Shown here one piece after another: positions 9,847-39,747 of a stretch of DNA of 47,304 bases. Within the stretch, counting starts at the first letter, position 1, and each line of letters starts with the position of its first letter. The translations under genes were made by a program, and so were the position numbers. The DNA is taken from the IMG/VR virus record IMGVR_UViG_3300017917_001210, positions 1-47,304 of that record, one strand, 5' to 3'. The DNA comes from a virus. The notes below the pieces were generated by a model, which saw only the letters and a list, made by a program, of their open reading frames with translations, was not told where the DNA came from and did not search any database.

Positions 9847-9865
9847 AGAACGGAAAAATAAAAAA

Positions 9866-21501: not shown

Positions 21502-21854
21502 TGCACAGTAATTTTATTACACCGCCAGACCTAGTTGACAACGATCTTCCTACAGTGCTCATGATTGATGCTGCGTGGGACGATGTTGAAAACATAGCCT
21601 TGTTTTGTCAGAACAGCAAACGCTGTTATAATGTGTATCTGTACACTGACATCATGTTTGATGCAGAGTGGCTCGGAGACGCAGTAAAACGTGCTCATGC
21701 TATTATTCTAAACTCTGCTGAAAGTGGTTGCACACAGGACAAGAATCGTTTGCTAAAAGATCCTCGAACCTGGTACTATGGACCAAACAACTATCTAGGC
21801 AACACCAACCAATTGCGTAACCCTATAGATTTTTTTATCAAAGACAATGAGTGA
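21501..21854 (+). CDS. Conserved phage protein of unknown function (117 aa)
   Basis: The ATG overlaps the stop of the previous gene (TGATG) and the end overlaps the start of clpX by eight bases, so the three genes are translationally linked. The pattern LPTVLMIDAAWDDVENIALFC, then CYNVYLYTDIMFDAEWLGDAV, then HAIILNSA alternates strands and helices like a Rossmann-type or receiver-like alpha/beta domain. No catalytic motif is clear. Confidence 0.6.
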   Translation: MHSNFITPPDLVDNDLPTVLMIDAAWDDVENIALFCQNSKRCYNVYLYTDIMFDAEWLGDAVKRAHAIILNSAESGCTQDKNRLLKDPRTWYYGPNNYLGNTNQLRNPIDFFIKDNE

Positions 21855-23055
21855 TTCTTCTAATCATGTGCTGTGTAATTTCTGCGGCAAGAGTCGCAGC
21901 GAAGTTGACAAATTGATTGTGGCAAACGACGCCGGCATTTGCAACGAGTGTATTGAGTTCTGTGCTGACCTTCTTAGCATGGAACGTGTTAAGAATCTGC
22001 AGTCAGATAAAAAGATCAGCAAGGCCCTGGATCCAGTTAAGATACGCAAATATCTTGACGAGTTTGTGATTGGACAGGACCAAGCCAAGATTAGTCTAGC
22101 AGTGGCAGTGGTAAATCATTACAAGCGTGTGTTCTTTGAACCAGAAATCGAAGTAGAAAAAAGCAATCTGCTCATACACGGACCAACAGGTTCAGGCAAA
22201 ACACTGCTGGCAAAAACTGTGGCCAAGTATCTCAATGTGCCATTTGTGATTGCAGACGCCACAACACTAACACAGGCAGGGTATGTGGGCGATGATGTAG
22301 AAAGTGTGATCAGTAGACTACTGAGTGCAGCCGATAACGATGTTGAAAAGTGCCAACAGGGCATTGTTTTCATAGATGAAATTGATAAAATTGGTCGTAA
22401 AAGTGAAAGCAGCAACTTGCATCGTGATGTGGGCGGCGAAGGTGTACAACAGGCTCTGCTCAAGTTGGTAGAGGGTACTGTGTGTAATGTTACTGTGAAC
22501 AGCGGTAAAAAGCATCCTAGTTTAGACAGTGTGGAAGTAAACACATCAAACATTCTGTTTATTGCAGGTGGAGCGTTTGACGGTCTGGACAAGATTGTGT
22601 CCAGCAGACAAAAAGGCACAGGCATTGGCTTTACCACAGCAGCCACCAGCAGCACCGCAGAGCAGGTAGAAGTGCTGCCCGAAGACCTAATCAAGTTTGG
22701 CATGATTCCAGAGTTTGTGGGACGTTTTCCAATTGCAGTAGGCATTGACGCACTGGATCTAGAAGACCTGACCAGGGTGCTGATTGAACCCAAAAACAGT
22801 TTGATACAACAAATGCAGTGGTACTTTGCCACCGACGGAATACAGTTGGAGTTTGAAGACACTGCTATCCTTACTATTGCGCAAACAGCGTTGGATCGTA
22901 AGGTTGGTGCCCGTGGGCTCAAGGGCATTGTAGAACAAGCATTGATGAGCACCATGTATTCCTTGCAGGAACTCAAGCGCACAGGAATAAGTAAAGTACG
23001 CATAACCAGCGATGTAATAACCAAACAAAAGGAACCGGAATATTTAAAATCATGA
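21847..23055 (+). CDS. clpX: ATP-dependent protease ATP-binding subunit ClpX
   Basis: ClpX unfolds proteins and feeds them to ClpP. All main elements are present in 402 aa: the zinc-binding domain (Cys10, Cys13, Cys32, Cys35), Walker A GPTGSGKT at 112-119, pore loop GYVGD, Walker B with Asp177-Glu178, and the sensor-2 GARGLK. The ClpP-docking IGF tripeptide is kept at 260-262, so it should still bind a ClpP ring. A ClpP gene lies 21 kb downstream. The stop overlaps the ATG of the bS21 gene. Confidence 0.97.
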   Translation: MSDSSNHVLCNFCGKSRSEVDKLIVANDAGICNECIEFCADLLSMERVKNLQSDKKISKALDPVKIRKYLDEFVIGQDQAKISLAVAVVNHYKRVFFEPEIEVEKSNLLIHGPTGSGKTLLAKTVAKYLNVPFVIADATTLTQAGYVGDDVESVISRLLSAADNDVEKCQQGIVFIDEIDKIGRKSESSNLHRDVGGEGVQQALLKLVEGTVCNVTVNSGKKHPSLDSVEVNTSNILFIAGGAFDGLDKIVSSRQKGTGIGFTTAATSSTAEQVEVLPEDLIKFGMIPEFVGRFPIAVGIDALDLEDLTRVLIEPKNSLIQQMQWYFATDGIQLEFEDTAILTIAQTALDRKVGARGLKGIVEQALMSTMYSLQELKRTGISKVRITSDVITKQKEPEYLKS

Positions 23056-23288
23056 AAGATAGACCAAAATTTGTTAACGGCATGACCGTTTTAGTTATCA
23101 ACGACAATGTGGAAAAAGCATTGCGCAAGTTCAAAAAGAAAGTGCAAGAAAGCGGACTCTTGCAGGATCTACGTGCGCGAGAATTCTACGAAAAGCCTAC
23201 CACTGCACGTAAACGTGCTAAAAATTCTGCCAAGCGCCGCTGGCAGAAACGTCTGGAAAGCCAGGCATTGCCTAAAAAACTCTACTGA
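23052..23288 (+). CDS. rpsU: Ribosomal protein bS21 (phage copy, 78 aa)
   Basis: The core (MTVLVINDNVEKALRKFKKK, then REFYEKPTTARKRAK, ending KKLY) matches bacterial bS21, including the near-invariant REFYEKPT-x-x-RKRAK segment. bS21 sits near the anti-Shine-Dalgarno end of 16S rRNA and affects initiation, so a phage copy could favour phage mRNAs. I use the ATG at 23052 that overlaps the clpX stop; the internal ATG at 23082 gives the canonical bS21 N-terminus and is a real alternative. Phage bS21 genes are known in large phages. Confidence 0.95.
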   Translation: MKDRPKFVNGMTVLVINDNVEKALRKFKKKVQESGLLQDLRAREFYEKPTTARKRAKNSAKRRWQKRLESQALPKKLY

Positions 23289-23542
23289 TGTACGTTGAAT
23301 TCCGTTTGCCAACTGGCGCAGGCGGAATGGCTGCTGGGCACTGTGCCGCATTGATCAAACGAAACATTGAAGCATGGGCAGTGAACCATAACATCAAGTA
23401 TAGAACAAAAATAGTCAATTACACTCTTAGACTGAGTTTACTGTCTGAACAGGACTATACTCTTTTTCAATTGAGCTGGAATCCAGATCACCACTGGGCA
23501 CGAGAGTACACATTGGTAGAGCCAATGGCCCAAAAAAATTGA
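23288..23542 (+). CDS. Small conserved phage protein (84 aa)
   Basis: The ATG shares a base with the TGA of the bS21 gene. The protein begins MYVEFRLPTGAGGMAAGHCAALIKRN and has alternating strands and helices with a His-rich segment (NPDHHWAREYTL). I do not recognise the family and see no classical catalytic triad. Co-expression with clpX and rpsU suggests an early host-takeover role, but this is inference. Confidence 0.6.
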   Translation: MYVEFRLPTGAGGMAAGHCAALIKRNIEAWAVNHNIKYRTKIVNYTLRLSLLSEQDYTLFQLSWNPDHHWAREYTLVEPMAQKN

Positions 23543-23569
23543 CTTCTTTCCCTTGATCGTGTATAAATA
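23539..23569 (+). promoter_or_regulatory. Composite promoter of the Hsp20 gene
   Basis: TTGACT at 23539-23544 is followed after 17 bases by TATAAA, which is itself part of a perfect TATAAATA at 23562-23569. The same -10 region can therefore serve host sigma70 and a T4-like late polymerase. Confidence 0.7.
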
Positions 23570-23574
23570 CACAT

Positions 23575-23631
23575 GTAAGATGCCTACGGGGTCTTACCAG
23601 TCATATTTTGCTTAAAGGAGAAAATAAAATG
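23575..23631 (+). promoter_or_regulatory. Possible ROSE/fourU-like RNA thermometer in the Hsp20 leader
   Basis: Hairpin I: GTAAGA (23575-23580) pairs with TCTTAC (23592-23597), with an inner CC-TACG-GG that gives a stable UNCG tetraloop. Hairpin II: TATTTT (23604-23609) pairs with AAAATA (23621-23626), G23610 is bulged, and CTT pairs with GAG across an AAAG loop. Hairpin II contains the Shine-Dalgarno sequence AAGGAG (23615-23620). A bulged G opposite the ribosome site and a UUGCU element are ROSE features. This is manual folding only. Confidence 0.55.
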
Positions 23632-24069
23632 GCTACTATCTTAACTCTTGACCTACCTACCCTGCATCGTCGCTTTATTGGTTTTGACCAATTTTTTGAC
23701 GAACTTGAACGCACGTTCCAAGTGCCCAAGCAGGACAATTACCCACCACACAACGTTATTCGCCAAAGCGAAAATCAGTTCAGCATTGAGCTGGCTGTGG
23801 CAGGCTTTGACGAGGACGAACTAGACGTCAGTTTGAGCAATCGTGTGCTAACCATTAAAGGTGAGCGTAAACCACGAGCAGCAACTGAGTCATGGGAATA
23901 CTTGCATCGTGGCATCGCCAGTCGCGATTTTGAACGCACCTTTCCATTGAACGACAATGTGGAAGTACGTGCCGTGACTGTGCGCAATGGCATCATGACT
24001 GTGAATCTGGAACTACTGGTTCCGGAGGAACAAAAAGCCAAAAAGATTGCAATTACGTTTGCCAAGTAA
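23629..24069 (+). CDS. Small heat shock protein (Hsp20/IbpA-like, 146 aa)
   Basis: I chose the ATG at 23629 (MATILTLDLPTLHRRFIGFD), eight bases after AAGGAG. The N-terminus with FIGFDQFFDELER and the alpha-crystallin domain (NQFSIELAVAGFDEDELDV, LTIKGER, HRGIASRDFERTFPL) are close to the IbpA/HspH family of bacteria. The protein binds unfolding proteins without ATP. It stands alone between a strong promoter and a terminator, and its leader may be temperature-sensitive. Confidence 0.95.
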   Translation: MATILTLDLPTLHRRFIGFDQFFDELERTFQVPKQDNYPPHNVIRQSENQFSIELAVAGFDEDELDVSLSNRVLTIKGERKPRAATESWEYLHRGIASRDFERTFPLNDNVEVRAVTVRNGIMTVNLELLVPEEQKAKKIAITFAK

Positions 24070-24074
24070 TATAA

Positions 24075-24106
24075 TAGTGGCTGCTAACCATGCAGCCACT
24101 ATTTTT
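24075..24106 (+). terminator. Strong rho-independent terminator
   Basis: A 10-bp stem TAGTGGCTGC / GCAGCCACTA with loop TAACCAT is followed by TTTTT. It closes the Hsp20 unit. Confidence 0.92.
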
Positions 24107-24120
24107 AATCGCGAGGAATT

Positions 24121-24441
24121 ATGAGCACAGATACACCAACCAAGGTACAAAACAATTTAAAAATTGAACCCAAGCTAAACATTCCTGAGCCTCGCATGTT
24201 TAAGGTTATTTTTATCAATGATGAAATTACCACAATGGAGTTCATTATTGAAACATTGAAGAACGTGTTTGACTACGATGAAGAAGATGCAAATGAAATG
24301 ACCATGCGTATTCATCAAGAAGGCGCAGCCATCGTTGCAGTTTATCCATATGAACTAGCGGAACAAAAAGGCATTGAAAGCACAGTACTGGCCCGTAACA
24401 ACGGTTTTCCATTGCAAGTTAAACTAGAACCAGAAGGTTAA
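24121..24441 (+). CDS. clpS: Clp protease adaptor ClpS (106 aa)
   Basis: The core (MFKVIFINDEITTMEFIIETL, then ANEMTMRIHQEGAAIVAVYPYELAE, then ARNNGFPLQVKLE) carries the ND-x-x-TTMEFV-type signature and the late helix and strand of ClpS. ClpS delivers N-end-rule substrates to ClpA/ClpC and blocks other substrates. No clpA is present here, so the phage adaptor would act on the host ClpA-ClpP machine. GAGGAATT precedes the ATG. Confidence 0.93.
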   Translation: MSTDTPTKVQNNLKIEPKLNIPEPRMFKVIFINDEITTMEFIIETLKNVFDYDEEDANEMTMRIHQEGAAIVAVYPYELAEQKGIESTVLARNNGFPLQVKLEPEG

Positions 24442-24443
24442 TC

Positions 24444-24983
24444 ATGGATGTGATGTTAGACATCGAGACACTGAGCACACGCCCTGAAAGCGTGTTGCTT
24501 ACCATTGGTGCGGTAAAGTTTGATCCCTGGGGCGATGATGTTGACACAGACCATGGACTCTACCACAGAGTAAATGTCGACGAGCAACTGGAACTGGGTC
24601 GCCATGTACAAGAAGAAACAGTTCAGTGGTGGGGCAACCAACCAGCTGATGTTTTTGAAGAAGCCATGGGTGAAAGCAACCGTGTGAGTCTAGCACAAAT
24701 GACAGCAGACCTAAATCGCTTTCTAGTAGGTGTAGAAAACATCTGGTGTCAAGGTCCTGCGTTTGACATTGTGATTCTAGAAAATCTGTATCGTCAATTG
24801 ATCAAACCAACACCATGGCAGTTCTGGCAAATTCGTGACAGTCGTACACTGTTTGGTGTACACGGCGATCCACGTGAAAAAGATCGCAAGGCCGCACACA
24901 ACGCACTCATGGACTGTTACTATCAAGCCATTGGTGTACAGCAGATTTACAAGACTGCAAAAATTGCCAAACGCACCTATTGA
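24444..24983 (+). CDS. DEDDh 3'-5' exonuclease, DexA-like (179 aa)
   Basis: The RNase H-like exonuclease set is complete: Asp6 and Glu8 in MLDIETLS, Asp108 in FDIVIL, His152 and Asp157 in HNALMD. The size and the WWGNQP and WCQGPAFD segments match the Rv2179c/DexA family of single-domain exonucleases; T4 DexA is a 3'-5' DNA exonuclease. It begins two bases after clpS. Action on RNA rather than DNA cannot be excluded. Confidence 0.88.
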   Translation: MDVMLDIETLSTRPESVLLTIGAVKFDPWGDDVDTDHGLYHRVNVDEQLELGRHVQEETVQWWGNQPADVFEEAMGESNRVSLAQMTADLNRFLVGVENIWCQGPAFDIVILENLYRQLIKPTPWQFWQIRDSRTLFGVHGDPREKDRKAAHNALMDCYYQAIGVQQIYKTAKIAKRTY

Positions 24984-24994
24984 AGAGAAAACAA

Positions 24995-25204
24995 ATGTCA
25001 GATCCTGTTGAAGAAAAACTAAATGAAATTCTCAGCTTTTTGCGAGTACTAGACATGAAACTCAAGTTTGTTGAAGATGACATACGTGATCTTAAGACTC
25101 AAGAGCTTGCAGAAATCAAAGCCTGTGTGGAAGTACTAGCCGAAGGAAAACTACAAAATATTCAGCAAGAAGCTGCAAAAAATTGGAAAGTGGAGAGATT
25201 GTAA
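24995..25204 (+). CDS. Small coiled-coil protein (69 aa)
   Basis: I chose the ATG at 24995, preceded by GAAGAGAAAACAA. The whole protein is a charged coiled coil (EEKLNEILSFLRVLDMKLKFVEDDIRDL) without membrane segment. Its stop overlaps the next ATG. Function unknown; it may act as an oligomerisation or adaptor factor. Confidence 0.6.
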   Translation: MSDPVEEKLNEILSFLRVLDMKLKFVEDDIRDLKTQELAEIKACVEVLAEGKLQNIQQEAAKNWKVERL

Positions 25205-25560
25205 TGCAAATCGTGTTTGGTGAAGAAGCTGCAAATCAGCTGAAAACAAAATATACCGTACTCAAGTTAGAAGATGTCGATACCGGAAGTGGTATATTGC
25301 ATCCTTACTGTGTGATTCCTGTAGAACAGATTGCAATGCAAATGGCCACATTAGAGCAGGATATTGCACTGCATGACAAGTTTGTTGATGCAATTGGCAA
25401 AAATGATGCCAAACTCTGCGAAAGCCTAGCACCCCACTTGTTAGGAAAATTTGGTGGCGAACTGGATACCTTTTATCAAATCGTAGTGGACAGATGCCAA
25501 TCCACTGGCCAAGCAACACTGGTTCTTCCAGCTGTACCCGAAGACCAAAAAACACCTTAA
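25204..25560 (+). CDS. Conserved phage protein of unknown function (118 aa)
   Basis: The ATG at 25204 shares its A with the TAA of the preceding gene. The N-terminal half is beta-rich (MQIVFGEEAANQLKTKYTVLKLEDV) and the middle is helical. There are two cysteines and no membrane segment. It ends this operon; the next gene lies behind a new leader. I recognise no domain. Confidence 0.6.
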   Translation: MQIVFGEEAANQLKTKYTVLKLEDVDTGSGILHPYCVIPVEQIAMQMATLEQDIALHDKFVDAIGKNDAKLCESLAPHLLGKFGGELDTFYQIVVDRCQSTGQATLVLPAVPEDQKTP

Positions 25561-25669: not shown

Positions 25670-26119
25670 ATGAAGTTTCTAAGAACAGCAATGGCCGCTG
25701 TTTTACTACCCACTACAGTGTGGGCCGCTCCACTGGCCGATTATTCATTTAAAAGTCCTGCATTCAACGGAGTTGGATACAGTAGTCACGTGCTGACTAT
25801 TGAGAACCAAGAACACACACGTAGAGAAACACTAAGAAAAGATTTACAGGCTGCAATAGACAAAGCAGCAGCAGAAGCCAAGTCCAGTAACTTGAACAAG
25901 TTCTTAAACAACTTGGAATCACGTATCTATGCTCAGATCAGTCAAAACCTAGCAACAGCAATGTTTGCTGATGGTGGCAGCAACACCGGGTCATTGAATT
26001 TTGAAGGTAATACCATATCCTGGACCAAGGATAGCAGTAACGTATATCTAACTGTTACAGACCTAGTGGGTAATGTAACACAAATAACAGTACCATTAGG
26101 GCAATTTCAATTCCAATGA
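25670..26119 (+). CDS. csgF: CsgF-like curli assembly protein (149 aa)
   Basis: A signal peptide (MKFLRTAMAAVLLPTTVWAA) is followed by LADYSFKSPAFNGVGY, which matches the CsgF start (F-x-F-x-NPxFGG) that inserts into the CsgG channel. The middle helix and the final NVYLTVTDLVGNVTQITVPLG also follow the CsgF order. CsgF caps the CsgG pore and helps nucleate the fibre on the cell surface. The stop overlaps the CsgG start (ATGA), so the two are coupled as partners. Confidence 0.85.
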   Translation: MKFLRTAMAAVLLPTTVWAAPLADYSFKSPAFNGVGYSSHVLTIENQEHTRRETLRKDLQAAIDKAAAEAKSSNLNKFLNNLESRIYAQISQNLATAMFADGGSNTGSLNFEGNTISWTKDSSNVYLTVTDLVGNVTQITVPLGQFQFQ

Positions 26120-27363
26120 CAAAACTACTAACAACAATTTTATTAATAGGGTTATTGTCGGGTTGTGCAGTTACCCAAAATGATCGCATGGGCAAAGCTC
26201 CCAAGCCAGTGAACATGCCTGTGATGATGCAGAAAGAATTTGATGCAATTCGTGGCCCAGCCCACGGACAGCCTATTACAGTAGCACTGTATGGATTCAC
26301 AGATAAAACAGGTCAGCGTAGACCACAACAGAACATTGCCAGCCTGAGCACAGCAGTTACTCAAGGATCAGAAACATTCTTGATCAAGGCACTACAAGAC
26401 GTAGGGCAGGGTCGTTGGTTCAAAGTTGTAGAGCGTGTGGGCATTGACGGGTTAACTCGTGAACGCCAGCTGATTAGACAGATGCGCGAAGCCTACGAAG
26501 GATCGAACGCTAAACCTTTGCCGCCAATGACATTTGCTGGAATAATACTCGAAGGCGGTATTGTTGGGTACGATAGCTCAGTTAAATCTGGAGGCATGGC
26601 AGCACGTTGGTTGGGTATTGGGCCACAGACACAGTACAGTGAAGATATTGTTACTGTGAGTATTCGTGCTATCAGTGTAAGCTCAGGCGAAGTGTTGGCA
26701 GCAGTCACAGTACAAAAGACCATTGTGAGTGCAGCAGACAGCGTAGCAGCAATGAAGTTTTTTGACATGGGCACCAAGGCTTTTGAATTTGAAACTGGTA
26801 TGACAGTCAATGAGCCGGGGACATTTGCAGTCAAGAGTACCATTGAAATGGCAGTATTAGAGTTGATTAAAGAAGGTGCAAAGAGAAATGTATGGGCGTT
26901 TGACGCTGCCACACCAGCAGCAAGTCCAGCAATTCCTCCTGCAAAAGAGCAAAAGCCAGAACCGGTTCCTGAGAAAAAAGCAGAACCAGCACCTGTGCCT
27001 GAAGTTAAAAAAGAAAATCCGCCGGCCAAAACAGAACCAGCAGCTAAAGCAGAACCAGCGGTAACGGTTCCTGTTCCTGAGGTTAAACTGGCAATTACCG
27101 AGCAATCAGCAAACCCGCCCGCAGTTGATAAAAAAGAAGTAGACAAACATTTACCAGTGGTATATGTCAAGGGCACAACCTATTTGTATATGAAAAAAGA
27201 TCTTCATAGCAAACGACTGGGCTGGTTATCTACAGGCGTTGAGCTGACTGTGGCGGAAATGGATAATCATTGGGCAACCGTTGTTGACTCCATGGGTAGG
27301 CACGGGTTCGTTAGGAAGGCAGTATTAGTGTCCGAAAAACCTATAATAAGAAAAGGGCATTAG
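26116..27363 (+). CDS. csgG: CsgG-like outer-membrane curli secretion channel with SH3-like tail (415 aa)
   Basis: A lipoprotein signal peptide ends in LLSGC with Cys17 as the lipidated residue. Residues 35-255 carry the CsgG domain (ITVALYGFTDKTGQ, QDVGQGRWFKVVER, GGIVGYDSSVKSGG, GPQTQYSEDIVTVSIRAI), the nonameric pore that exports curli subunits. Unlike the 277-aa E. coli protein, it continues with a Pro/Glu/Lys/Ala-rich linker (about 260-345) and a C-terminal SH3-like domain (about 347-410) with VYVKGTTYLYMKKD and GRHGFVRKAVL. The extra part may bind peptidoglycan. Confidence 0.92.
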   Translation: MTKLLTTILLIGLLSGCAVTQNDRMGKAPKPVNMPVMMQKEFDAIRGPAHGQPITVALYGFTDKTGQRRPQQNIASLSTAVTQGSETFLIKALQDVGQGRWFKVVERVGIDGLTRERQLIRQMREAYEGSNAKPLPPMTFAGIILEGGIVGYDSSVKSGGMAARWLGIGPQTQYSEDIVTVSIRAISVSSGEVLAAVTVQKTIVSAADSVAAMKFFDMGTKAFEFETGMTVNEPGTFAVKSTIEMAVLELIKEGAKRNVWAFDAATPAASPAIPPAKEQKPEPVPEKKAEPAPVPEVKKENPPAKTEPAAKAEPAVTVPVPEVKLAITEQSANPPAVDKKEVDKHLPVVYVKGTTYLYMKKDLHSKRLGWLSTGVELTVAEMDNHWATVVDSMGRHGFVRKAVLVSEKPIIRKGH

Positions 27364-27385: not shown

Positions 27386-28162
27386 ATGAAAATAAAATTT
27401 CTAGCAGCAGTGTTAATGCTAGGGATTACTAATTATATTCAAGCAGGTGACAATAAAGTATATATCGACCAAGTTGGTGATCGTAGCACAATAGCAATAA
27501 CCCAGGATGGGTCTAGTAACTTAGTAAAAGGCGTGGGTACCGCACAGGATACCAATGCTAAAATTCACGGCGATGACGCCGCAGTAACAATAACGCAGAC
27601 AGGAGCAGCCAACCAGCTGGTACTGGGCGTCAATGGTGGTGCCTTGGGCTCTAACAACATAGTTTCCTACACAGTAACAGGTAACTTAGGAAATGCCACT
27701 ATTGACTGTAACAACGCTGATACCGGCAAGTGTAATGCTAACAACATTGGCATCACACAGGTTGGTAACAACTCTTTGGCTACAGTAACCGTTAATGGCG
27801 AAAACAACGTGGTGACTGGTACTACCACTGGTGGTAACAATAACCAGTTGTATTTCAATATCACAGGTGACGGCTTGCATCCAAGCATTGCTATCACAGG
27901 TGGTGGCAACAGCGGCAGTATCACCATGGCGCCAACAGCAGGTATCAATGCCACAGCCACTATGACCATTACTGGTTCTAGCAACAACGTGAGCATTAAC
28001 CAAACAGGCGGAGCCGTGCTTGGACATACTGCACAACTAGGAATCAGTGGCAGCGGTAACACCGTAACAGTTGTTCAGACAGGTACAGCAGGAGACAATT
28101 TGTTTAACTTGACCAGCTCTGGCAGCAGCAATTCTATCACTGTTAATCAAAACACGCAGTAA
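27386..28162 (+). CDS. Secreted curlin-repeat protein, amyloid subunit candidate (258 aa)
   Basis: A signal peptide (to about residue 20, IQA-GDN) is followed by several curlin-like units of the S/N-x-I/V-x-I-x-Q-x-G-x-x-N type, for example NKVYIDQVGDRSTIAITQDG, AAVTITQTGAANQ, NNIGITQVGNNS and NNVSINQTGG. These Gln/Asn ladders form the amyloid beta-rungs in CsgA and CsgB. The ribosome binding site is GAAAGGAG. By position after CsgG it is the likely CsgA- or CsgB-type substrate of the channel. Confidence 0.85.
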   Translation: MKIKFLAAVLMLGITNYIQAGDNKVYIDQVGDRSTIAITQDGSSNLVKGVGTAQDTNAKIHGDDAAVTITQTGAANQLVLGVNGGALGSNNIVSYTVTGNLGNATIDCNNADTGKCNANNIGITQVGNNSLATVTVNGENNVVTGTTTGGNNNQLYFNITGDGLHPSIAITGGGNSGSITMAPTAGINATATMTITGSSNNVSINQTGGAVLGHTAQLGISGSGNTVTVVQTGTAGDNLFNLTSSGSSNSITVNQNTQ

Positions 28163-28174
28163 CCGGGAGAGGAA

Positions 28175-29284
28175 GTGAAACTATGCCGCATCGTCATCTT
28201 AGAACTATCGCTGATATTATTCGCGAGCAGCACACACGCTGGAATAGGAAAGATTACCGATCAAGTAAACACCCCAGCTTCGATACAACGACAGAAAACG
28301 ATGCTGAATGGGACGAAAGGTACAGCCCTGGAGATGCAAGATGCAGTGCGGACTGCCCAGGGAAAAGTTCAGATAACTTTTGATGACGAGACCAAGGTAC
28401 AGATCACTGAAAACAGTAAGTTAGTTATAGATGATTTTGTTTACGATCCTAACAGCAAGAAAGGCGGAAAACTTGCTGTTAATATCGCACTAGGCACAGT
28501 ACGTTATGCCAGTGGACAAATTGCAAAAAACAATCCTCAAGCAGTAGCAGTTAACACTCCTTCAGCCACAATTGGTGTGCGTGGCACAGACTTTACAGCA
28601 GCAGTAGACGAACTAGGACGCAGTACCATTGTGTTGCTGCCCAGCTGTCCAGTCGGTTGGCGCGATATTAAAACAGATTGTAAAACTGGTGAGATCAGTG
28701 TAACCTCAGATGAGGGCACTGTTATCATGAATCAACCCTTTCAAGCAACCACAGTGACCACAAGAGAAACCAGGCCCATGAAACCGGTTATTCTCAAACT
28801 TGATGAGGATCAAATCAACAATCTGTTGATCCTTACTCCAATCAAGGGAGAACCAACCAGAGAAGAACGCATGGACACTCGCAAGGGTTTTTTAGATGTG
28901 GATTTTTTAAAATTTGAAGGACTGGGCAATGCTCTAGAAGCGCAGGATCCTTTCAAATACAGCAAGTTGGATGTTAACTTTTTGGAACGAGAATTCTTGG
29001 TTAACATTCTGGACATGGTAGACGCCATGATCAAAGCACAAATGGATTACCTGGAAAATGCCAATGCCAAGCTACTACCAGACTACGTGGCACTCACAGG
29101 TGTAAGAGCAGTTATTGAAGATCCAATTGTACAGCTATGTCGCGAAGATAACAGCAGCAATGTGGCCTGTGTGCAGGTATTACAGACCAGAGATGTAACC
29201 ATTACGATCATACAAGAACGCATGGAGTTTAAGAATCGTGTGAACGCAGGTGGTATAAGCAATATAACTATTACACAAAACTAA
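28175..29284 (+). CDS. Secreted FecR-domain protein (369 aa)
   Basis: The start is GTG after GGGAGAGG. A signal peptide ends near HAGIG. Residues 30-195 are a FecR-type beta-helix domain (TALEMQDAVRTAQGKVQITF, SKLVIDDFVYDP, VNTPSATIGVRGTDFTAAV). The C-terminal half is charged and helical and the last residues (GGISNITITQN) resemble one curlin rung. There is no N-terminal sigma-regulator region, so this is a secreted structural or adaptor use of FecR, perhaps at the fibre base. Eleven bases separate it from the curlin-repeat gene. Confidence 0.8.
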   Translation: MKLCRIVILELSLILFASSTHAGIGKITDQVNTPASIQRQKTMLNGTKGTALEMQDAVRTAQGKVQITFDDETKVQITENSKLVIDDFVYDPNSKKGGKLAVNIALGTVRYASGQIAKNNPQAVAVNTPSATIGVRGTDFTAAVDELGRSTIVLLPSCPVGWRDIKTDCKTGEISVTSDEGTVIMNQPFQATTVTTRETRPMKPVILKLDEDQINNLLILTPIKGEPTREERMDTRKGFLDVDFLKFEGLGNALEAQDPFKYSKLDVNFLEREFLVNILDMVDAMIKAQMDYLENANAKLLPDYVALTGVRAVIEDPIVQLCREDNSSNVACVQVLQTRDVTITIIQERMEFKNRVNAGGISNITITQN

Positions 29285-29285
29285 T

Positions 29286-29873
29286 ATGAGACTTCCTACA
29301 ATTATTTTCTTCTCGTTGTTTTTACTTGCATGCGGATTGGCATTTGCAGACAATTCAATCACAGTGAATCAAGTGGGCAGTTCTAACACTATTAACATTG
29401 AGCAAGTGGGAACCAAACACAAGGTCACCGTGAACATGGGACAAACAACAGACGTGGACAACACTACGTTGACCATATTACAGCAGGGCACAGGAGCAAA
29501 AACTGCCACAGTTTCTATTCCGTCAGGAATTAACAACAGCGTTAATATACAGCAGGATGGTGCTGGAAATCACTTGGCCAGCATACAGAATTTAAACGGC
29601 TCTGGCAACGGTATAACCGTGAATCAATCAGGTGCAGGCAAACATGAGTTTAATGTGGTAGTAGGTGCAGGCACTACAAACAACGGAAATACTATTACCG
29701 CTACACAAGCAGGCGGTACAGGATCAGACAAGTGGTTTAATGTTTGGTTAAATGGAGCAACAGGAGCAACTGTCAATGTGGTACAGGACAATGCAAACAC
29801 CGCAGATCAAGCCAGCATGAACGTACAGTGCATGCCCGGAACCTGTGGAACATTCGGATACATTAAACACTAG
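29286..29873 (+). CDS. Second curlin-repeat secreted protein (195 aa)
   Basis: A signal peptide ends at LAFADN. The mature part has curlin-type rungs (NSITVNQVGSSNTINIEQVG, NSVNIQQDGAGNHLASIQN, NGITVNQSGAGK, NTITATQAGG). The C-terminus has a CMPGTC pair and ends FGYIKH, which could be a disulphide-closed cap. With the first curlin-repeat protein it makes a two-subunit set like CsgA/CsgB, but I cannot tell nucleator from major subunit. It follows the FecR gene by one base. Confidence 0.85.
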   Translation: MRLPTIIFFSLFLLACGLAFADNSITVNQVGSSNTINIEQVGTKHKVTVNMGQTTDVDNTTLTILQQGTGAKTATVSIPSGINNSVNIQQDGAGNHLASIQNLNGSGNGITVNQSGAGKHEFNVVVGAGTTNNGNTITATQAGGTGSDKWFNVWLNGATGATVNVVQDNANTADQASMNVQCMPGTCGTFGYIKH

Positions 29874-29885: not shown

Positions 29886-30215
29886 ATGAAAAAACTAGCC
29901 ATGGCTGCTATCCTACTAGCACTGGTATCACAGGGTTATGCTCGAGACAAAACAATACAAGTTACCTGTGGCACCAAGGAAGAATGGGTAATGACAGCCA
30001 ACAAATATGGCGAAGAATTGGTTATTGCGGCTCCCGCACCAAACAGAGAAACCATAGTGAGTCTATGGGTAAACTTTGCCACAGGGTCATCCAGCTGGGT
30101 AACTCATGTGGTAGCAACAGACGAATGGTGTATGACAGGCATAGGGGAGAAATTGCTAATACCAAAAGACAGTCCGTTGAATAATTTAACAGGAACAAGA
30201 GTAATATACAAATAA
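29886..30215 (+). CDS. Small secreted protein of the curli-type locus (109 aa)
   Basis: A signal peptide (MKKLAMAAILLALVSQGYA) is followed by a 90-residue beta-rich mature domain with two cysteines (VTCGTKEEW and EWCMTG) that could form a disulphide. The size and single beta-sandwich look recall periplasmic curli accessory proteins such as CsgC or CsgE, but no diagnostic motif supports either. It is the last gene before the operon terminator. Confidence 0.6.
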   Translation: MKKLAMAAILLALVSQGYARDKTIQVTCGTKEEWVMTANKYGEELVIAAPAPNRETIVSLWVNFATGSSSWVTHVVATDEWCMTGIGEKLLIPKDSPLNNLTGTRVIYK

Positions 30216-30435: not shown

Positions 30436-32799
30436 ATGCGTAAACTATTGACTAAGGTCATTCTGGCCTTAGGTATCGCCTTTGCCCCTGTGGCTCAGGC
30501 AGACCTAGTTGACGGACATTTTAGTACTAATCAAATTTTTGATGTACAGTATTATTGGTCCGGCACAACTCTAAACGCAAGTAACTTTATCGCTCCGTAC
30601 GATATGAATTTTCAACATCCTACGGTAGCAGCTGGAGACTACTTTGCGTTTTTCCCAAGTACCACAAATCCCGGAACATATGGCATGGGGCTGTATAATT
30701 CCTCAGGAACGCTATTACAAGTCGTACACGACACCGGTACACTACAAGCCATTGGCCCAGATGCTATTTTTTATGTAGGATCAGGATTCTTTGGTACAGT
30801 GATTACTACCAGTGCAGGATACGCATATGGTGCCAGCGGTACATTTACCAATATGGATACCAGTGTGTCTGGAACTGATGCCAGTTCATACACCTGGGCT
30901 AGTACCACTCCACTGACAGCAGGTCAAACTGCCAGCAGCGGTGGCGGTAGCGGCGGTGGAACAACAACACCTACACCAACCTATACAGCAATTACCAGTG
31001 CAAATGTTGTGCAAGTTACTCCGACCAGTAACAACAGCCCAGCAGGTGAAGGTGCTACCAATGTGATTGATGGCAACACAGGCACAAAGTATTTGAACTT
31101 TGACCGTGCAAGTGCAGGTTTCACTATTAAACTGGACCAAGGTCGAGTAATTGAGAAATTCACAATTACCACAGCTAACGACTACTCTCCACGTGACCCA
31201 AGCAAGTTCAGCTTGTTTGGATCAAACGATGGACGTACTTGGACCACAATCGCTAACAATCAAAGTATAACATTAAGTGATAATCGTTTTACCACATCCA
31301 GCGACATTGTTGTGGCCAATACCAATGCTTATGTGTATTACTTTATTACTTTTGATTCCACCAAAGCCTTGGATCAATATCCAGTGTTGGCATCCTGTAT
31401 GGCAGCATACGGTGGTGGTTGGCTAGGTACCGAAAACTGTAACAGTGTTCAAGTATCAGAAGTCAAGTACTACTATGACAGTGCAAACAACACTACCAGT
31501 GTTGATGCTGGTAACGGTACTGTGGCTAACCCAGGAACAGCTGGTGCTACATCCAGTTTGAACACTGGCCCAACTGTGGTTGGTACTGCTCCAGGTGCAA
31601 ACATTGTATCCACAACAGAAACACCAGGCACAATGGTAACAAATACCAACAGCACACGCGGCACAACCACATCGGTTACCACTGTAAACGATGCACGTGG
31701 CGCACAGGAAACCAAACGTTTGGAAGTGGTTAGAACCACAACAGTGACTTCTACTACTCCAATCACCACAGTGGTTACACAGACAACACCAGTTACTGTT
31801 ACTACCGTGACCACACCAACTACTGTGACAACCTACAGTGATGGTACTACCACTACTACAAATGGTACTCCAGTAACCACAGTCGCAATCAGAACTGATG
31901 TGATCACAACAACCACAACTACCAATGAAGTTGTTAGTTCTTCCAGCGATCAGAGCTACTTTACCAAGATTGATCAGTACAGTAACCTGGCAGCAGTTAA
32001 CCAAAGACTTAACGCAGCATTGGACAGTGATGTTCTAGATCGTCACAAAGGATCTAGCGAAACTCTTGTAACTCGCAGCAATGCAGCGGGCAATGAGGAA
32101 AAAGGTTGGTGGTATCTAATTGCTGAAGGACAGCGTTCTAACACAGTAGACACATACTCCACTAAAACCAATCGTTATGGATTTGGACATGAGAAAAAGG
32201 TACGTGGTAACTGGATAGTTGGTTTACAATACAACCATCTAAGCAGCACCATGGCTGGTCTGGATGCAGGCGGCGGTTTGGTCAAAGACCACGTGGGTAT
32301 CTACAGTCTGTACAATCACAATGGTTGGTTGTTGAAAACTGATTTGGCATACAGCCAGAACAGCTTTACCAACTATCATTCATTGCCAGAACTGAACTAC
32401 AGCAACTCAGGCAAAACCGCAGGTAATGATATCTGGTTGAGCAACAGACTATACACTCCAGAGTTCAAAGGGTTCCGTCCTTTTGCTGGTGTACGTGTAG
32501 AGAACAACAAGCGCAACGAACTAACAGAAACTGGTTCTGCTATCACTGCAATGAACTATGCTGCTGTTAACCAAACTCGCACAGTAGGCGAAGTTGGTTT
32601 GCGTTATGATGTTGCAATCAGAGAGCGAGTGAACTTTATCGCAGAAGCCAGTCAAACTGACACAAGCCTTACAACTGTTAAGGTCGGTGTAAACTTTGCA
32701 CCAAAAGAACGTGTTATCGGTGGCGTAAGCGTGGTTCAACAAAGCCAAAACGGCGTACAAAATACTCTAGGTCAAGTATCTTTACGTTGGATATTCTAA
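30436..32799 (+). CDS. Autotransporter with discoidin domain and outer-membrane barrel (787 aa)
   Basis: A signal peptide ends at VAQADL. An N-terminal beta domain with a PEP-CTERM-like or surface-protein look (30-160) is followed by a Gly/Ser linker, then a discoidin (F5/8 type C) fold at about 185-305 (GEGATNVIDGNTGTKYLNF, PSKFSLFGSNDGRTWTTI). Residues 350-510 are a Thr/Val low-complexity stalk. The last 250 residues are an autotransporter-type barrel (GFGHEKKVRGNWIVGLQYNH, ending LGQVSLRWIF with a terminal Phe). The protein would display a sugar-binding passenger on the host surface. Confidence 0.85.
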   Translation: MRKLLTKVILALGIAFAPVAQADLVDGHFSTNQIFDVQYYWSGTTLNASNFIAPYDMNFQHPTVAAGDYFAFFPSTTNPGTYGMGLYNSSGTLLQVVHDTGTLQAIGPDAIFYVGSGFFGTVITTSAGYAYGASGTFTNMDTSVSGTDASSYTWASTTPLTAGQTASSGGGSGGGTTTPTPTYTAITSANVVQVTPTSNNSPAGEGATNVIDGNTGTKYLNFDRASAGFTIKLDQGRVIEKFTITTANDYSPRDPSKFSLFGSNDGRTWTTIANNQSITLSDNRFTTSSDIVVANTNAYVYYFITFDSTKALDQYPVLASCMAAYGGGWLGTENCNSVQVSEVKYYYDSANNTTSVDAGNGTVANPGTAGATSSLNTGPTVVGTAPGANIVSTTETPGTMVTNTNSTRGTTTSVTTVNDARGAQETKRLEVVRTTTVTSTTPITTVVTQTTPVTVTTVTTPTTVTTYSDGTTTTTNGTPVTTVAIRTDVITTTTTTNEVVSSSSDQSYFTKIDQYSNLAAVNQRLNAALDSDVLDRHKGSSETLVTRSNAAGNEEKGWWYLIAEGQRSNTVDTYSTKTNRYGFGHEKKVRGNWIVGLQYNHLSSTMAGLDAGGGLVKDHVGIYSLYNHNGWLLKTDLAYSQNSFTNYHSLPELNYSNSGKTAGNDIWLSNRLYTPEFKGFRPFAGVRVENNKRNELTETGSAITAMNYAAVNQTRTVGEVGLRYDVAIRERVNFIAEASQTDTSLTTVKVGVNFAPKERVIGGVSVVQQSQNGVQNTLGQVSLRWIF

Positions 32800-32859: not shown

Positions 32860-34902
32860 ATGAAAAAACTTCTATTAAACCCATGGACTGCACTGATTAC
32901 CTTGGCATTGGTACTAGGCATTCGTATATCCGATACCGCATTTGTAGAGTCAGTTAGACTGCGCTACTTTGACACACTGATCACAAGCAAGGCGCCAACA
33001 GAAAATAACATATACACGGTGAACATTGATGAAGCCACATTGGACAAATATGGCCAATGGCCTTTGCCAAGAGGCCAGTATGCTGAACTAATTGACGAAC
33101 TCTTCAAGAGAAACGCTGGACTGGTAGTGTGGACCATACTCATGCCAGAGCTGGATCGCAACGGTCAGGACAATGACCTATCGTATGCTTTGGCCACAAA
33201 CCCTGTTATTCTCAGCAGTGTGCCCAGTAACACATCCAAGAATCCCCCAAGACAGGTGGGTGTCAGTATTATGCGTCCTGAATTTACAGACCGCATTGTA
33301 CAGTATCCAGGCATGATATCTAATATAGAGGCCCTGAGCAGTCAAGCCGCAGGTGTGGGTATTGCCGGAACATTACCTGAGGTTGATGGTGTTAATCGTA
33401 GATTGCCTCTGGTGGTCAGCGTGAATGATGTGCTGTATCCAAGCGTGTCACTGGAAACACTACGAGTGGCAGCGGGTGATCCTAGTTTTCAAATCAAGCT
33501 GAACGAGAATGGTGTAGAGAAAATGCGCATTCCGCAGTTTGGTCCTATCGCCACAGACAACCTAGGGCGCATCTGGATTGACTGGAGCCAGCGCAGCCAG
33601 TCTGTGAGCGCAGCAAAGCTGCCAAAAGATTTTAACAAGGCCATTGTGATTGTGGGTACCAGTGCCGCAGGATTGGGTAACCCAGTGCCCACCAGCATTG
33701 GAGCAGTATGGCCTCAGGATGTGCATGCCAGCGTGATTGGCACTATGGTCAATGGAGTTACCATACAGCGACCGGACTACGCAGATGGGCTGGAAATACT
33801 TGCAATACTTGCTGCTGGTGTTATACTGCTAGCGTTAACCAGGTGGGTGTATGTTGGTCTAGCATCTGTGGTAGTTCTTGTTGGTGGATTCGCATACGGC
33901 AGCTACTATGCTTTTGCTACAGATCTTTGGCTGTTTGATGTTACCGCACCAATTGCAGGAGTTATCCTGGTTGCACTACACGCATACGGTGTGAAGTTCG
34001 TAAGCGAGTTCTTGCAGAAACAACAGATCAAGAAACAGTTTGGCAGCTATGTGAGCCCTGTTATCGTTGAGAGATTACAAAAAGATCCTAGTTTAATTAA
34101 ACTGGGCGGCGAAGAAAAGATGCTTACAGCAGTGATGACAGACATGCGCAACTTCACAGGACTAGGTGAAAAGTACGGCGCAGACGTTGAAGGCTTTACC
34201 GCTATCATGAACGCATACATGACAGCTATCAGCAAACCTGTGTTTGCCAACGATGGTTGTTTGATCAAGTTCATTGGTGATGCCAGCTTGCACATTCATG
34301 GTGCACCGGTAGACGACAATCGCCATGCTTACCGTGCTGCGCAAACAGCCATTGAAATGGTACAGGCCGTGGACGAGTTTAACAAGCACCTGCACAGTAT
34401 TGGCAAGCCACCAGTGGGTATGGGTGCTGGTGTTAACACAGGAAAGATTCTTGTAGGTAACATTGGATCAGAAGGCAAGATGGGATACGATGTACTAGGC
34501 GATCCTGTGAGCGTGGCCAGTCGACTGGAAGGTCAGACCAAGGGCTATGGAGTATTGTTGATCATTGGACCTGACACCTATGCAGAAGTTAAAAATGATT
34601 TCCATTGCTTTGAACTAGATTGCATTGCAGTCAAAGGCAAAGACATTGGATTGAATATCTATACACCACTGTTTAATCCTGCCAACTTCAATCAACATGA
34701 TGCCGACAGACATGCAAGCATGCTGGCTGCATACAGAGCTCAGGACTGGAGAGCGGCAACTGCAATTACCAAGAGTTTGATTGGCTGCTTTGGTGGCGAA
34801 TTGGACCACTACTATGAACTGTGGCTAGAGCGTATTGCAGCAACAAAGAAAATGAAATTACCAACAGACTGGGACGGAATCTACCGTGCTACTAGCAAAT
34901 AA
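32860..34902 (+). CDS. CHASE2-domain class III adenylate/guanylate cyclase (680 aa)
   Basis: An N-terminal helix, a periplasmic CHASE2 sensor (about 25-315; VNIDEATLDKYGQWPLPRGQY) and three membrane helices (about 315-380) precede a class III cyclase domain (about 405-600). Both metal aspartates are present, Asp428 (TDMRNFT) and Asp474 (KFIGDAS). The Lys in IKFIGD and Asp548 region favour ATP, but Ser551 replaces the usual transition-state Asn while Arg555 is kept (PVSVASRLE). The enzyme probably makes cAMP in response to an envelope signal. A C-terminal helical tail follows. Confidence 0.93.
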   Translation: MKKLLLNPWTALITLALVLGIRISDTAFVESVRLRYFDTLITSKAPTENNIYTVNIDEATLDKYGQWPLPRGQYAELIDELFKRNAGLVVWTILMPELDRNGQDNDLSYALATNPVILSSVPSNTSKNPPRQVGVSIMRPEFTDRIVQYPGMISNIEALSSQAAGVGIAGTLPEVDGVNRRLPLVVSVNDVLYPSVSLETLRVAAGDPSFQIKLNENGVEKMRIPQFGPIATDNLGRIWIDWSQRSQSVSAAKLPKDFNKAIVIVGTSAAGLGNPVPTSIGAVWPQDVHASVIGTMVNGVTIQRPDYADGLEILAILAAGVILLALTRWVYVGLASVVVLVGGFAYGSYYAFATDLWLFDVTAPIAGVILVALHAYGVKFVSEFLQKQQIKKQFGSYVSPVIVERLQKDPSLIKLGGEEKMLTAVMTDMRNFTGLGEKYGADVEGFTAIMNAYMTAISKPVFANDGCLIKFIGDASLHIHGAPVDDNRHAYRAAQTAIEMVQAVDEFNKHLHSIGKPPVGMGAGVNTGKILVGNIGSEGKMGYDVLGDPVSVASRLEGQTKGYGVLLIIGPDTYAEVKNDFHCFELDCIAVKGKDIGLNIYTPLFNPANFNQHDADRHASMLAAYRAQDWRAATAITKSLIGCFGGELDHYYELWLERIAATKKMKLPTDWDGIYRATSK

Positions 34903-34914
34903 TTGGATAGACTT

Positions 34915-35772
34915 ATGCGTAAGTACATACCTATACTGCTACTTCTTTCCTTATTATTTCATGGGGCAAGTGTCGCAAAAACACCAGCCAGTACCAACGA
35001 CCTAACAGCCAAAAGCTGGTTGGTAACTGACAGCGAAGGAAATCTCATTGCAGGTGAGAATGTGCATGCGGTACGCAGTATTGCCAGCGTGACCAAGTTG
35101 ATGACTGTGCTCACAATACTGGACAGGCATGCAGAACTGGATCGTCCACTGGACCTAACCATGCGTAACTATAATAAGAAAACACGCAAGGCCAAGCGCA
35201 GTGCATATGATAACCTCACTCGTAGACAGTTGATTGACCTAGCCATGATTCGCAGCGACAACAATGCGGCCAGGTTGTTGTGCGAAACATATCCTGAAGG
35301 ATACAAAAAGTGCATTGATGACATGAATGCCAAGGCGCACAGTTTAGGTATGTTGTACAGTGTGTTCTACGATCCTACAGGACTAGATGACAGAAACAAC
35401 AGCACAGCCGCAGACCTGGTCAAGTTGGCCAGAAGTGCAGTGAACTATCCTGAAGTGGTAAATGCCAGTCAGCAGAGTCAGATCAAGGTAAAGATCAAAC
35501 GTCACTGGTTTGCAGGACACAACACAAATCCACTGATCGGCAACACGCATGACATCAAGGTCAGTAAGACTGGGTGGACCACACGAGCTGGTGGGTGTAT
35601 TTTGATGCTAATGGACACAGACAAAGGACGCAGGATCGTTGTGGTATTGGGCAGTAAGAGTATCAAGACTCGAATACCTGAAGCAGAGTTTATATCTCGG
35701 ATTGATGAAACAGCGGTGGTTGAAAAAGAGCCTAATACACTGTTTGGTATCAGGCTCTTTGGCAGCGATTAA
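34915..35772 (+). CDS. D-Ala-D-Ala endopeptidase, PBP7-like (S11 family, 285 aa)
   Basis: I chose the ATG at 34915 (MRKYIPILLLL); a TTG at 34903 would add four residues. A signal peptide ends near SVAKT. The three penicillin-binding motifs are present: SVTK at 58-61, SDN in MIRSDNNAA, and KTG in VSKTGWT. The short length without the C-terminal anchor domain matches PBP7 (PbpG), which cleaves peptidoglycan cross-links in the periplasm. It begins 12 bases after the cyclase, so the two may share one mRNA. Confidence 0.92.
   Translation: MRKYIPILLLLSLLFHGASVAKTPASTNDLTAKSWLVTDSEGNLIAGENVHAVRSIASVTKLMTVLTILDRHAELDRPLDLTMRNYNKKTRKAKRSAYDNLTRRQLIDLAMIRSDNNAARLLCETYPEGYKKCIDDMNAKAHSLGMLYSVFYDPTGLDDRNNSTAADLVKLARSAVNYPEVVNASQQSQIKVKIKRHWFAGHNTNPLIGNTHDIKVSKTGWTTRAGGCILMLMDTDKGRRIVVVLGSKSIKTRIPEAEFISRIDETAVVEKEPNTLFGIRLFGSD
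35725..35760 (-). terminator. Terminator for the minus-strand membrane genes, inside the PBP7-like gene
   Basis: On the minus strand AAAGAGCCTGATAC pairs with GTATTAGGCTCTTT (one mismatch) and is followed by TTC after a T tract. It lies within the last codons of the convergent PBP7-like gene, and may stop both transcripts. Confidence 0.7.
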
Positions 35773-38715: not shown

Positions 38716-39747
38716 ATGACTGTTAAACGCATTGGCTTTGCATGCAAATGGATCAACGGCCCTGATGAAATTGCAGGCGCAAAACCAGCTAGCACAGACC
38801 ACAACACACGATCTACCACAGTGGCCTGGCTTAACCGTCAGCCCAAAGACGAAGCTGTGCAACGACTGTGGGACATTGTGCAGCATAACATTTCCTCAAC
38901 TCGCAAACTTGTAGAAAAGGTAGGCACCCATGAGCATTCATTACGTATGGTTCGGATTGGCAGCGATATTCTTCCTATGTACACTCAGCCTGATTGGGGC
39001 TGGTTTTATCAGCAACCGGATGTTAGAGCTTATGCCCAGCAGCATTTTGCAGAAGTGGGACGGCTGGCTCGCGCCCTTGACGTGCGCCTTAGTTTTCATC
39101 CTGGCCAGTTCTGTGTTCTTGCAAGTGACAACGACAATATTGTTGAACGTAGTATTGAAGAGTTTGAATATCACGCCGATGTAGCACGTTGGATGGGCTA
39201 TGGTGCCACATGGCACGATCACGGATTTAAGATTAACGTACATTTAAGCGGACGCGGTGGGTCCGATAAGTTCCTTACAACACTGGGCAGACTTTCGCCT
39301 GAGGCTAGGAATCTAATTACCATCGAGAATGATGAGATGAAATATGGATTGGATTATACTCTTGCTGTCAGTAAACATGTGGCTCTTGTTCTCGATATAC
39401 ATCATCACTGGGTCAACTCGGGGGAGTATATTGCGCCGACAGACGATCGTGTTCGCGCTGTTATTGACAGTTGGCGTGGTACTCGTCCTGTTCTGCACTA
39501 CTCTGTTAGTAGGGAAGATATTCTTGTGGATCATTGTGCCGGATCTAGGCCCGATCTTGCAGGACTTATTGCGGGAGGCCATAAGAAACAACAACTTCGC
39601 GCACACAGTGATTTCTACTGGAACCAATCTGTGAATGAGTGGGCATTAGAGTTTACAGACCAGTTTGATCTCATGTGCGAATCAAAAGCCAAAAATTTAG
39701 CCAGCTTTGCATTACACAAGCTGGCTAAAGAAAAGAATATAATTTAA
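38716..39747 (+). CDS. uvsE: UV-damage endonuclease (UVDE/UvsE family, 343 aa)
   Basis: The TIM-barrel UVDE pattern is clear: RIGFACKWI at the first strand, MVRIGSDILPMYT, SFHPGQFCVLAS, NVHLSGRGG, TIENDEMKYG, LVLDIHHHWVN and LHYSVSRE, with metal-binding His and Glu residues at the expected strand ends. The enzyme nicks DNA 5' to UV photoproducts and starts excision repair. Length is normal. A sigma70 promoter suggests early expression, useful for a sunlit-water phage (inference). Confidence 0.95.
   Translation: MTVKRIGFACKWINGPDEIAGAKPASTDHNTRSTTVAWLNRQPKDEAVQRLWDIVQHNISSTRKLVEKVGTHEHSLRMVRIGSDILPMYTQPDWGWFYQQPDVRAYAQQHFAEVGRLARALDVRLSFHPGQFCVLASDNDNIVERSIEEFEYHADVARWMGYGATWHDHGFKINVHLSGRGGSDKFLTTLGRLSPEARNLITIENDEMKYGLDYTLAVSKHVALVLDIHHHWVNSGEYIAPTDDRVRAVIDSWRGTRPVLHYSVSREDILVDHCAGSRPDLAGLIAGGHKKQQLRAHSDFYWNQSVNEWALEFTDQFDLMCESKAKNLASFALHKLAKEKNII

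Follow-up and report, generated by a model that had tools for sequence, protein, structure and literature searches.

Introduction

A module of curli genes with a FecR-domain gene and an adenylate cyclase gene has already been described in pelagiphages (Wittmers et al., 2022; PMC9599517). In the accessible part of that report, the module was given an alphaproteobacterial origin and was described as transferred between phage families, and a histidine kinase ahead of csgF was reported to be always present in podoviral pelagiphages (PMC9599517). The basic finding is therefore known. The same part contains no analysis of CHASE2, of the catalytic residues, of domain swaps or of the FecR tail. It is a puzzle that full curli systems occur in phages of the ocean and of fresh water although the known hosts of these phages have none. 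Sibling capture, import, superinfection exclusion and lysis timing are the proposals made so far for phage curli.

Related enzymes are found in cells. A gene cluster in Campylobacterota comprises a CHASE2 cyclase, a PDE, FecR and TPR (PMC9239204). CyaD1 of the Clr pathway in Sinorhizobium meliloti is a CHASE2 adenylate cyclase that becomes constitutive when CHASE2 is deleted, and SMc02177, a Clr target with a FecR domain, was found not to be needed for signal perception (PMC5498481). Ma1120, a class III cyclase of Mycobacterium avium, combines a Lys/Asp purine pair with Ala at a position described as a transition-state residue; the enzyme is active and loses most of its activity once Asn is restored there (PMC4215837).

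A related locus was analyzed here in a virus record of 47.3 kb. The whole stretch of 47,304 nucleotides is called the window, and it carries phage genes for ribonucleotide reductase, a tail-spike-like protein and virion proteins. The module itself is known, and the catalytic variant, the domain swaps and the curlin-like tail of the FecR protein are new.

Organization of the Curli Block

The genes around the cyclase in the window are as follows.

25670-26119, plus strand: CsgF, curli extracellular chaperone (Pfam, E 3e-13)
26116-27363, plus strand: CsgG, outer-membrane curli pore with a C-terminal extension (Pfam CsgG, E 6e-45; SH3_3, E 0.013, weak)
27386-28162, plus strand: curlin-repeat protein 1, C-terminus SNSITVNQNTQ (Pfam Curlin_rpt; termini)
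28175-29284, plus strand: secreted FecR-domain protein (Pfam FecR, E 1e-11; structural matches of the model)
29102-29281, plus strand: C-terminal beta domain of the FecR protein, residues 310-369, with the curlin-like final strand SNITITQN (AF2 strands, motif statistics, profile comparison, invariant terminal Gln)
29286-29873, plus strand: curlin-repeat protein 2 (Pfam Curlin_rpt)
29886-30215, plus strand: small secreted-looking protein, an inconstant module member (Pfam I42 below the cut-off; relatives in 16 viral loci)
30436-32799, plus strand: F5/8 type C (discoidin) surface protein, an occasional member (Pfam; relatives in 12 viral loci; termini)
34903-35772, plus strand: S11 D-Ala-D-Ala carboxypeptidase-like protein, beginning right after the cyclase stop (Pfam, E 2e-37; downstream in 21 of 127 viral loci)

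The order on the single strand was csgF-csgG-curlin-FecR-curlin, then two extra genes and the cyclase, which was the last gene of the curli (type VIII secretion) block. CsgF, CsgG, curlin, FecR and the cyclase were hence arranged as in the curli (T8SS)/FecR/AC module. The pelagiphage module, represented by HTVC008M and Melnitz, shares these genes and their order (CsgF, CsgG, curlin, FecR, second curlin and cyclase), and the two pelagiphage cyclases were 36-40% identical to that of the window. In contrast to the pelagiphage module, the window adds the discoidin-like surface protein and the carboxypeptidase gene. No histidine kinase was detected among the five ORFs scanned upstream of csgF (21847-25560). 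An earlier sequence-only reading of this DNA had called the neighbors of the cyclase surface proteins and had named curli among the bacterial processes under cAMP control. Surface and secreted genes were indeed present, but their identity as a curli/FecR operon had been missed. Curli had been named aptly, except that the curli genes are owned by the phage and lie directly upstream, rather than being those of the host.

Several minor features were observed in this region. CsgG had an additional Pro/Glu/Lys-rich C-terminal extension with a weak SH3-like domain at its end. The discoidin-like protein, located between curlin 2 and the cyclase, was 787 aa long and signal-peptide-like, with a barrel-like C-terminus (...LRWIF) and a terminal Phe. 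A 125-aa ORF before csgF (25183-25560, plus strand) was similar to the helical tail at the C-terminus of the cyclase (28%, residues 613-665, E 4e-4), and about 12 viral loci had a stand-alone ORF of this kind close to the module. A proteolysis/RNA-turnover cluster (21847-24983, plus strand) lay shortly before the curli block and encoded a ClpX-like AAA protein with a zinc finger, Hsp20, a ClpS adaptor and a 3'-5' exoribonuclease. No Rfam elements or tRNAs were found, and the T4 late-promoter pattern was not above chance.

Domain Layout of the Cyclase

The cyclase and its parts are given below.

32860-34902, plus strand: CHASE2 class III adenylate cyclase, 680 aa (Pfam, PHROG 35576, AF2, Foldseek 3r5g/2w01/1wc0)
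32899-33822, plus strand: CHASE2 sensor domain, residues 14-321, predicted periplasmic (Pfam, E 3e-37; flanking helices of the model)
33781-34041, plus strand: three post-CHASE2 helices (308-328, 330-355 and 362-394), predicted transmembrane (AF2 secondary structure)
34006-34047, plus strand: linker EFLQKQQIKKQF, residues 383-396, the breakpoint of sensor/catalytic similarity between phages (sliding identity, codon-level comparison, AU test)
34126-34644, plus strand: class III catalytic domain, residues 423-595, with D428, K470, D474, D544, S551 and R555, plus H478 and H480 (Pfam Guanylate_cyc, E 9e-16)

The frame was uninterrupted across the 680 codons, the opposite strand was rich in stops, and the PHROG 35576 match spanned the whole length of the protein. 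In the AlphaFold2 model (pLDDT 90), a single helix at residues 8-24 preceded CHASE2 and the three helices separated it from the output domain, which is the layout of a CHASE2 receptor. Membership in the class III cyclases was indicated by homology (Pfam) and by fold. Among the solved class III cyclases, 3r5g (CyaB) matched the catalytic domain with a TM of 0.90 on the target, and Foldseek grouped the domain with Pseudomonas CyaB, Synechocystis Cya2 and Spirulina CyaC. Because of the helix arrangement in the model, CHASE2 is expected outside in the periplasm and the cyclase domain in the cytoplasm. The sequence-only reading of a phage protein with a CHASE2 sensor, membrane helices and a class III domain with both metal aspartates was borne out by Pfam, PHROG, AF2 and Foldseek. 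Its idea that the enzyme retunes the host from the periplasm would hold for the sensor only, catalysis being placed in the cytoplasm. CyaD1 is likewise a CHASE2 receptor cyclase, though in an alphaproteobacterium; unlike the window enzyme, it is chromosomal and works via the host Clr.

Catalytic Residues and a Virus-Restricted Type

Asp428 and Asp474 are assigned to the metals, Lys470 and Asp544 to the purine, and Ser551 occupies the site of the usual Asn; the substitution and the retained Arg555 had been numbered correctly in the earlier reading. Both metal aspartates and the transition-state Arg of class III enzymes were present (D428, D474 and R555), and the transition-state Asn was replaced by Ser551. 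K470 and D544 constitute the Lys/Asp form of the adenylate-type pair, for which Lys/Thr and Lys/Ser are also accepted. The combination of Lys and Asp is the classical adenine-recognizing pair of class III adenylate cyclases. The gene product probably makes cAMP. Two short segments distinguish the enzyme from its relatives.

34291-34299, plus strand: codons of His478-x-His480, diagnostic for the Asp/Ser clade, with Ala and Trp elsewhere (alignment, DNA pattern scans)
34489-34512, plus strand: codons of Asp544...Ser551, a virus-restricted pair, with S/T544 and N551 in the nearest bacterial enzymes (alignment)

The residues D428, K470, D474 and R555 did not vary among 235 viral homologues of near-full length; position 551 held Ser in 144 of them and Asn in the other 91. 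Ser551 was always accompanied by Asp544, and Asn551 by Ser or Thr544. The Asp/Ser group also had fixed Ser476, His478 and His480, with Ile469 in all members except one. An alignment with bacterial CHASE2 cyclases had been suggested earlier to see whether Ser551 is common; it was found in 0 of the 80 closest bacterial enzymes among the matches listed, all of which had Ser/Thr544 with Asn551. The His-x-His DNA pattern matched at least 120 viral contigs. The second motif was readable in 112 of these contigs among the matches listed, and all 112 were Asp/Ser. The bacterial scan for the same pattern covered 754 proteobacterial genomes and gave no match in 385 genomes from the class of a Bradyrhizobium locus or in 369 genomes from the class of a Burkholderiales locus. 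The Asp544/Ser551/His-x-His type thus appears to be new and, within the sets scanned, was found in viruses only. The window and Melnitz have it, whereas HTVC008M does not.

In the catalytic-domain tree, the Asp/Ser enzymes formed a single branch (SH-aLRT 100) nested in a supported group with viral Thr/Asn enzymes. The type therefore most likely arose among phage cyclases. Since this origin is single, the coupling of the two positions counts as one event and not many. The perfect 544/551 coupling was accordingly rejected as an independent sign of functional coupling, the Asp/Ser enzymes being one clade.

The joint change of catalytic positions 469, 476, 478, 480, 544 and 551 in this clade, none of whose six states is the rule in the 80 closest bacterial enzymes among the matches listed, would suit enzymes that yield cGMP or another cyclic nucleotide in place of cAMP, so that the circuit would not be cAMP-based. 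However, Lys470 and Asp544 are the adenine pair shared with the adenylate cyclase Ma1120, and the residue at 551 is described as acting on the transition state and not on base recognition (PMC4215837). A product other than cAMP is hence considered quite unlikely.

Selection and Exchange of the Catalytic Domain

The median dN/dS was 0.058 for the catalytic domain and 0.13 for the sensor (107 pairs), and, judged from the sequences, the Asp/Ser clade is under strong purifying selection. The two halves of the protein had different histories. L220 and L187 shared 95% of the catalytic domain and only 35% of the sensor, whereas L018 and L068 shared 87% of the sensor and only 53% of the catalytic domain. 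The identity jumped at about residues 383-396, in the pre-catalytic linker, with a second drop past about residue 595. Moreover, 2 changes of catalytic state were needed on the cyclase tree versus 12 on the CHASE2 tree, and a single Thr/Asn clade was rejected on the CHASE2 alignment (AU test, p-AU 0.0003). Unequal rates of the domains were rejected as the cause of the discordant trees because pairs were discordant in both directions and Thr/Asn monophyly on CHASE2 failed the AU test. Phages have therefore exchanged this catalytic domain repeatedly between sensors at the preceding linker, which is a new observation. In the codon-level comparison, the four-fold sites of the swapped segments were largely diverged; hence, the exchanges are old. 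Such swaps are natural experiments on where the signal enters a cyclase.

A phylogenetic search for the donor had also been proposed. No recent donor was found, since the best bacterial full-length match among the matches listed was 34% identical and the best match in plasmids was about 29%; recent capture from a host was rejected on these values.

The selection and exchange data also bear on whether the cyclase is dead, or almost so, and kept as a scaffold or decoy. The replacement of the conserved transition-state Asn, which the earlier reading had pointed out, would fit such a role. However, the remaining catalytic residues were all invariant, selection was strongest on the catalytic domain, and this domain was exchanged repeatedly as a unit. 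Ma1120 resembles the window cyclase in its Lys/Asp pair and its non-Asn transition-state residue, although it has Ala and not Ser and is not a phage protein. Because Ma1120 is active with Ala at that position and is damaged by Asn, Ser551 would be no argument against activity and no mark of inactivity, the precedent being Ala rather than Ser. Conservation, selection and the example of Ma1120 led to the rejection of inactivity due to Ser551, and a dead enzyme is regarded as very improbable. With the Asp/Ser/HxH type, nature may instead offer a substitute for a residue that is considered almost universal among class III cyclases.

The FecR Protein and Its Curlin-Like Tail

The FecR protein had a signal-like N-terminus. 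In its model (pLDDT 81), the FecR domain was similar to PupR (6ovk, Z 14.9 over 135 residues), and a weaker match was obtained with an adhesin anchoring domain (5ix9, Z 6.6). The model thus resembles an anti-sigma protein of cell-surface signalling as well as an adhesin anchor, and domain homology and fold agree with FecR of cell-surface signalling (Pfam, E 1e-11; 6ovk). A separate C-terminal domain of six strands was predicted by AF2; the search, carried out with the whole FecR model, gave no convincing solved-structure match for it.

This domain ended similarly to curlin 1 of the window (SNITITQN vs. SNSITVNQNTQ) and showed the curlin strand pair x-I-x-I-x-Q with Gln/Asn-Gly arcs. The pattern, which was drawn up after the tails had been seen, fitted 127 of the 153 FecR proteins from viruses, or 39 of 53 once redundancy had been removed. 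None of the 30 FecR proteins from bacteria had it (0 of 30); it turned up in 3 of 1536 other ORFs, and shuffled tails matched at a rate of about 1%. The terminal Gln of the tail strand was invariant, and the FecR and curlin tails were aligned by hhalign with a probability of 77% over 36 columns. When 47 FecR proteins were compared with Pfam Curlin_rpt, none matched up to an E of 1, and the signal of a curlin-tail HMM against whole ORFs was too weak to decide. Since the pattern was post hoc and the Pfam curlin model misses the tail, the FecR end is named a curlin-like tail and not a proven curlin repeat. The module FecR accordingly ends in a curlin-like strand pair that is missing from bacterial FecR neighbors of the cyclase, a feature that is new here.

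Cellular pairs, i.e., those of Campylobacterota (PMC9239204) and alphaproteobacterial ones found in this work, also place a CHASE2 cyclase beside a FecR-domain protein. Unlike the phage FecR, the bacterial partners did not have the curlin-like tail (the 0 of 30 above). In two Bradyrhizobium loci, FecR-domain proteins of more than 1500 aa with RTX-like repeats at the end were encoded directly before a CHASE2 cyclase (L245, 5335-9885; L312, 2755-9861). These long proteins suggest a wider bacterial adhesin-FecR-CHASE2 theme.

Linkage of the Cyclase to Curli Genes in Viruses

Relatives of the cyclase were collected by three overlapping IMG/VR scans, which gave at least 515, at least 585 and at least 135 stretches; 240 loci were kept, and the viral sequences were mostly metagenomic contigs. 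Neighborhoods were counted, on the cyclase strand and within 8.5 kb, in the 127 viral loci whose upstream DNA reached at least 6 kb. csgF and csgG lay upstream of the cyclase in 111 of the 127 loci, curlin in 116 and FecR in 112, and the exact order csgF-csgG-curlin-FecR-curlin-cyclase was found in 98. In 50,697 deposited phage records, a full-length cyclase and CsgG co-occurred in six (four of Melnitz and two of HTVC008M), and CsgG without the cyclase occurred in one, a 1.5-kb 'Salmonella phage' record.

Ten cyclase contigs, nine of which had no curli genes nearby, were searched whole. CsgG and FecR were located elsewhere in six of them; the other four, without CsgG and FecR, were 118, 41, 23 and 8.2 kb long. 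The longest, L026 (118,684 bases), is a long phage contig with the cyclase and no detectable CsgG or FecR anywhere.

The separation of the cyclase from the curli block in some phages raises the question of whether the enzyme answers a general host or envelope cue, such as a small molecule or the membrane state, with the block merely co-inherited and cAMP steering host metabolism or lysis timing. CHASE2 ligands are in general not known. Furthermore, a FecR ORF lay within 300 nt of the cyclase in only 19 of the 80 closest bacterial CHASE2 cyclases among the matches listed and, unlike in the window, no CsgG match was found near any of the 80. However, the gene order is tightly kept across very diverged phages, and most of the contigs searched whole retain CsgG and FecR at a distance. 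A cue unrelated to curli is therefore judged rather unlikely, though it is the strongest of the competing explanations.

A Possible Signalling Output of the Phage Curli Module

An even chance is given to the reading in which the phage curli module signals through a working receptor adenylate cyclase, which reads the state of FecR and the fiber or of the envelope and acts on host cAMP targets. During infection, the phage would make the CsgG/CsgF outer-membrane pore, curlin fiber subunits and the exported FecR-domain protein with its curlin-like C-terminus. The periplasmic CHASE2 domain would sense the assembly state of FecR and the fiber, or the envelope stress arising from assembly. FecR is the likely link to CHASE2, FecR genes also adjoining some bacterial CHASE2 cyclases, although operon adjacency is in itself no proof of binding. 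The helices and the KQQIKKQF linker would carry the signal to a cytoplasmic, homodimeric catalytic domain, which would convert ATP to cAMP. The cAMP would then work on host targets, because a search of the window and of 22 viral contigs with the cyclase detected no cNMP-binding domain or protein. A phage-encoded cAMP receptor was rejected on the same search, and the earlier proposal of a cyclase acting on the host agrees with it.

The conserved receptor cyclase and the fiber-like FecR tail suggest that the fiber is sensed and reported into the cell. A further proposal is that a catalytic type evolved in phages (Asp544/Ser551/His-x-His), spread as a cassette between sensors and is used in a virus-encoded second-messenger circuit that monitors the amyloid fiber of the phage via the FecR protein with its curlin-like tail. 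This proposal is put forward tentatively, at somewhat less than even odds.

Other Genes of the Window

Class I ribonucleotide reductase subunits were encoded at 7549-10990 (plus strand), and the large subunit was 60% identical to that of Stenotrophomonas phage DLP6. One virion protein was 38% identical to those of cyanophages. The window is thus of mosaic origin, since the ribonucleotide reductase is nearest to that of DLP6 and the virion protein matches cyanophages. A protein adjoining a virion structural gene (16971-17831, plus strand) had a Pfam ILEI domain at its C-terminus (E 6e-10), and the UV-damage endonuclease UvdE was encoded at 38716-39747 (plus strand).
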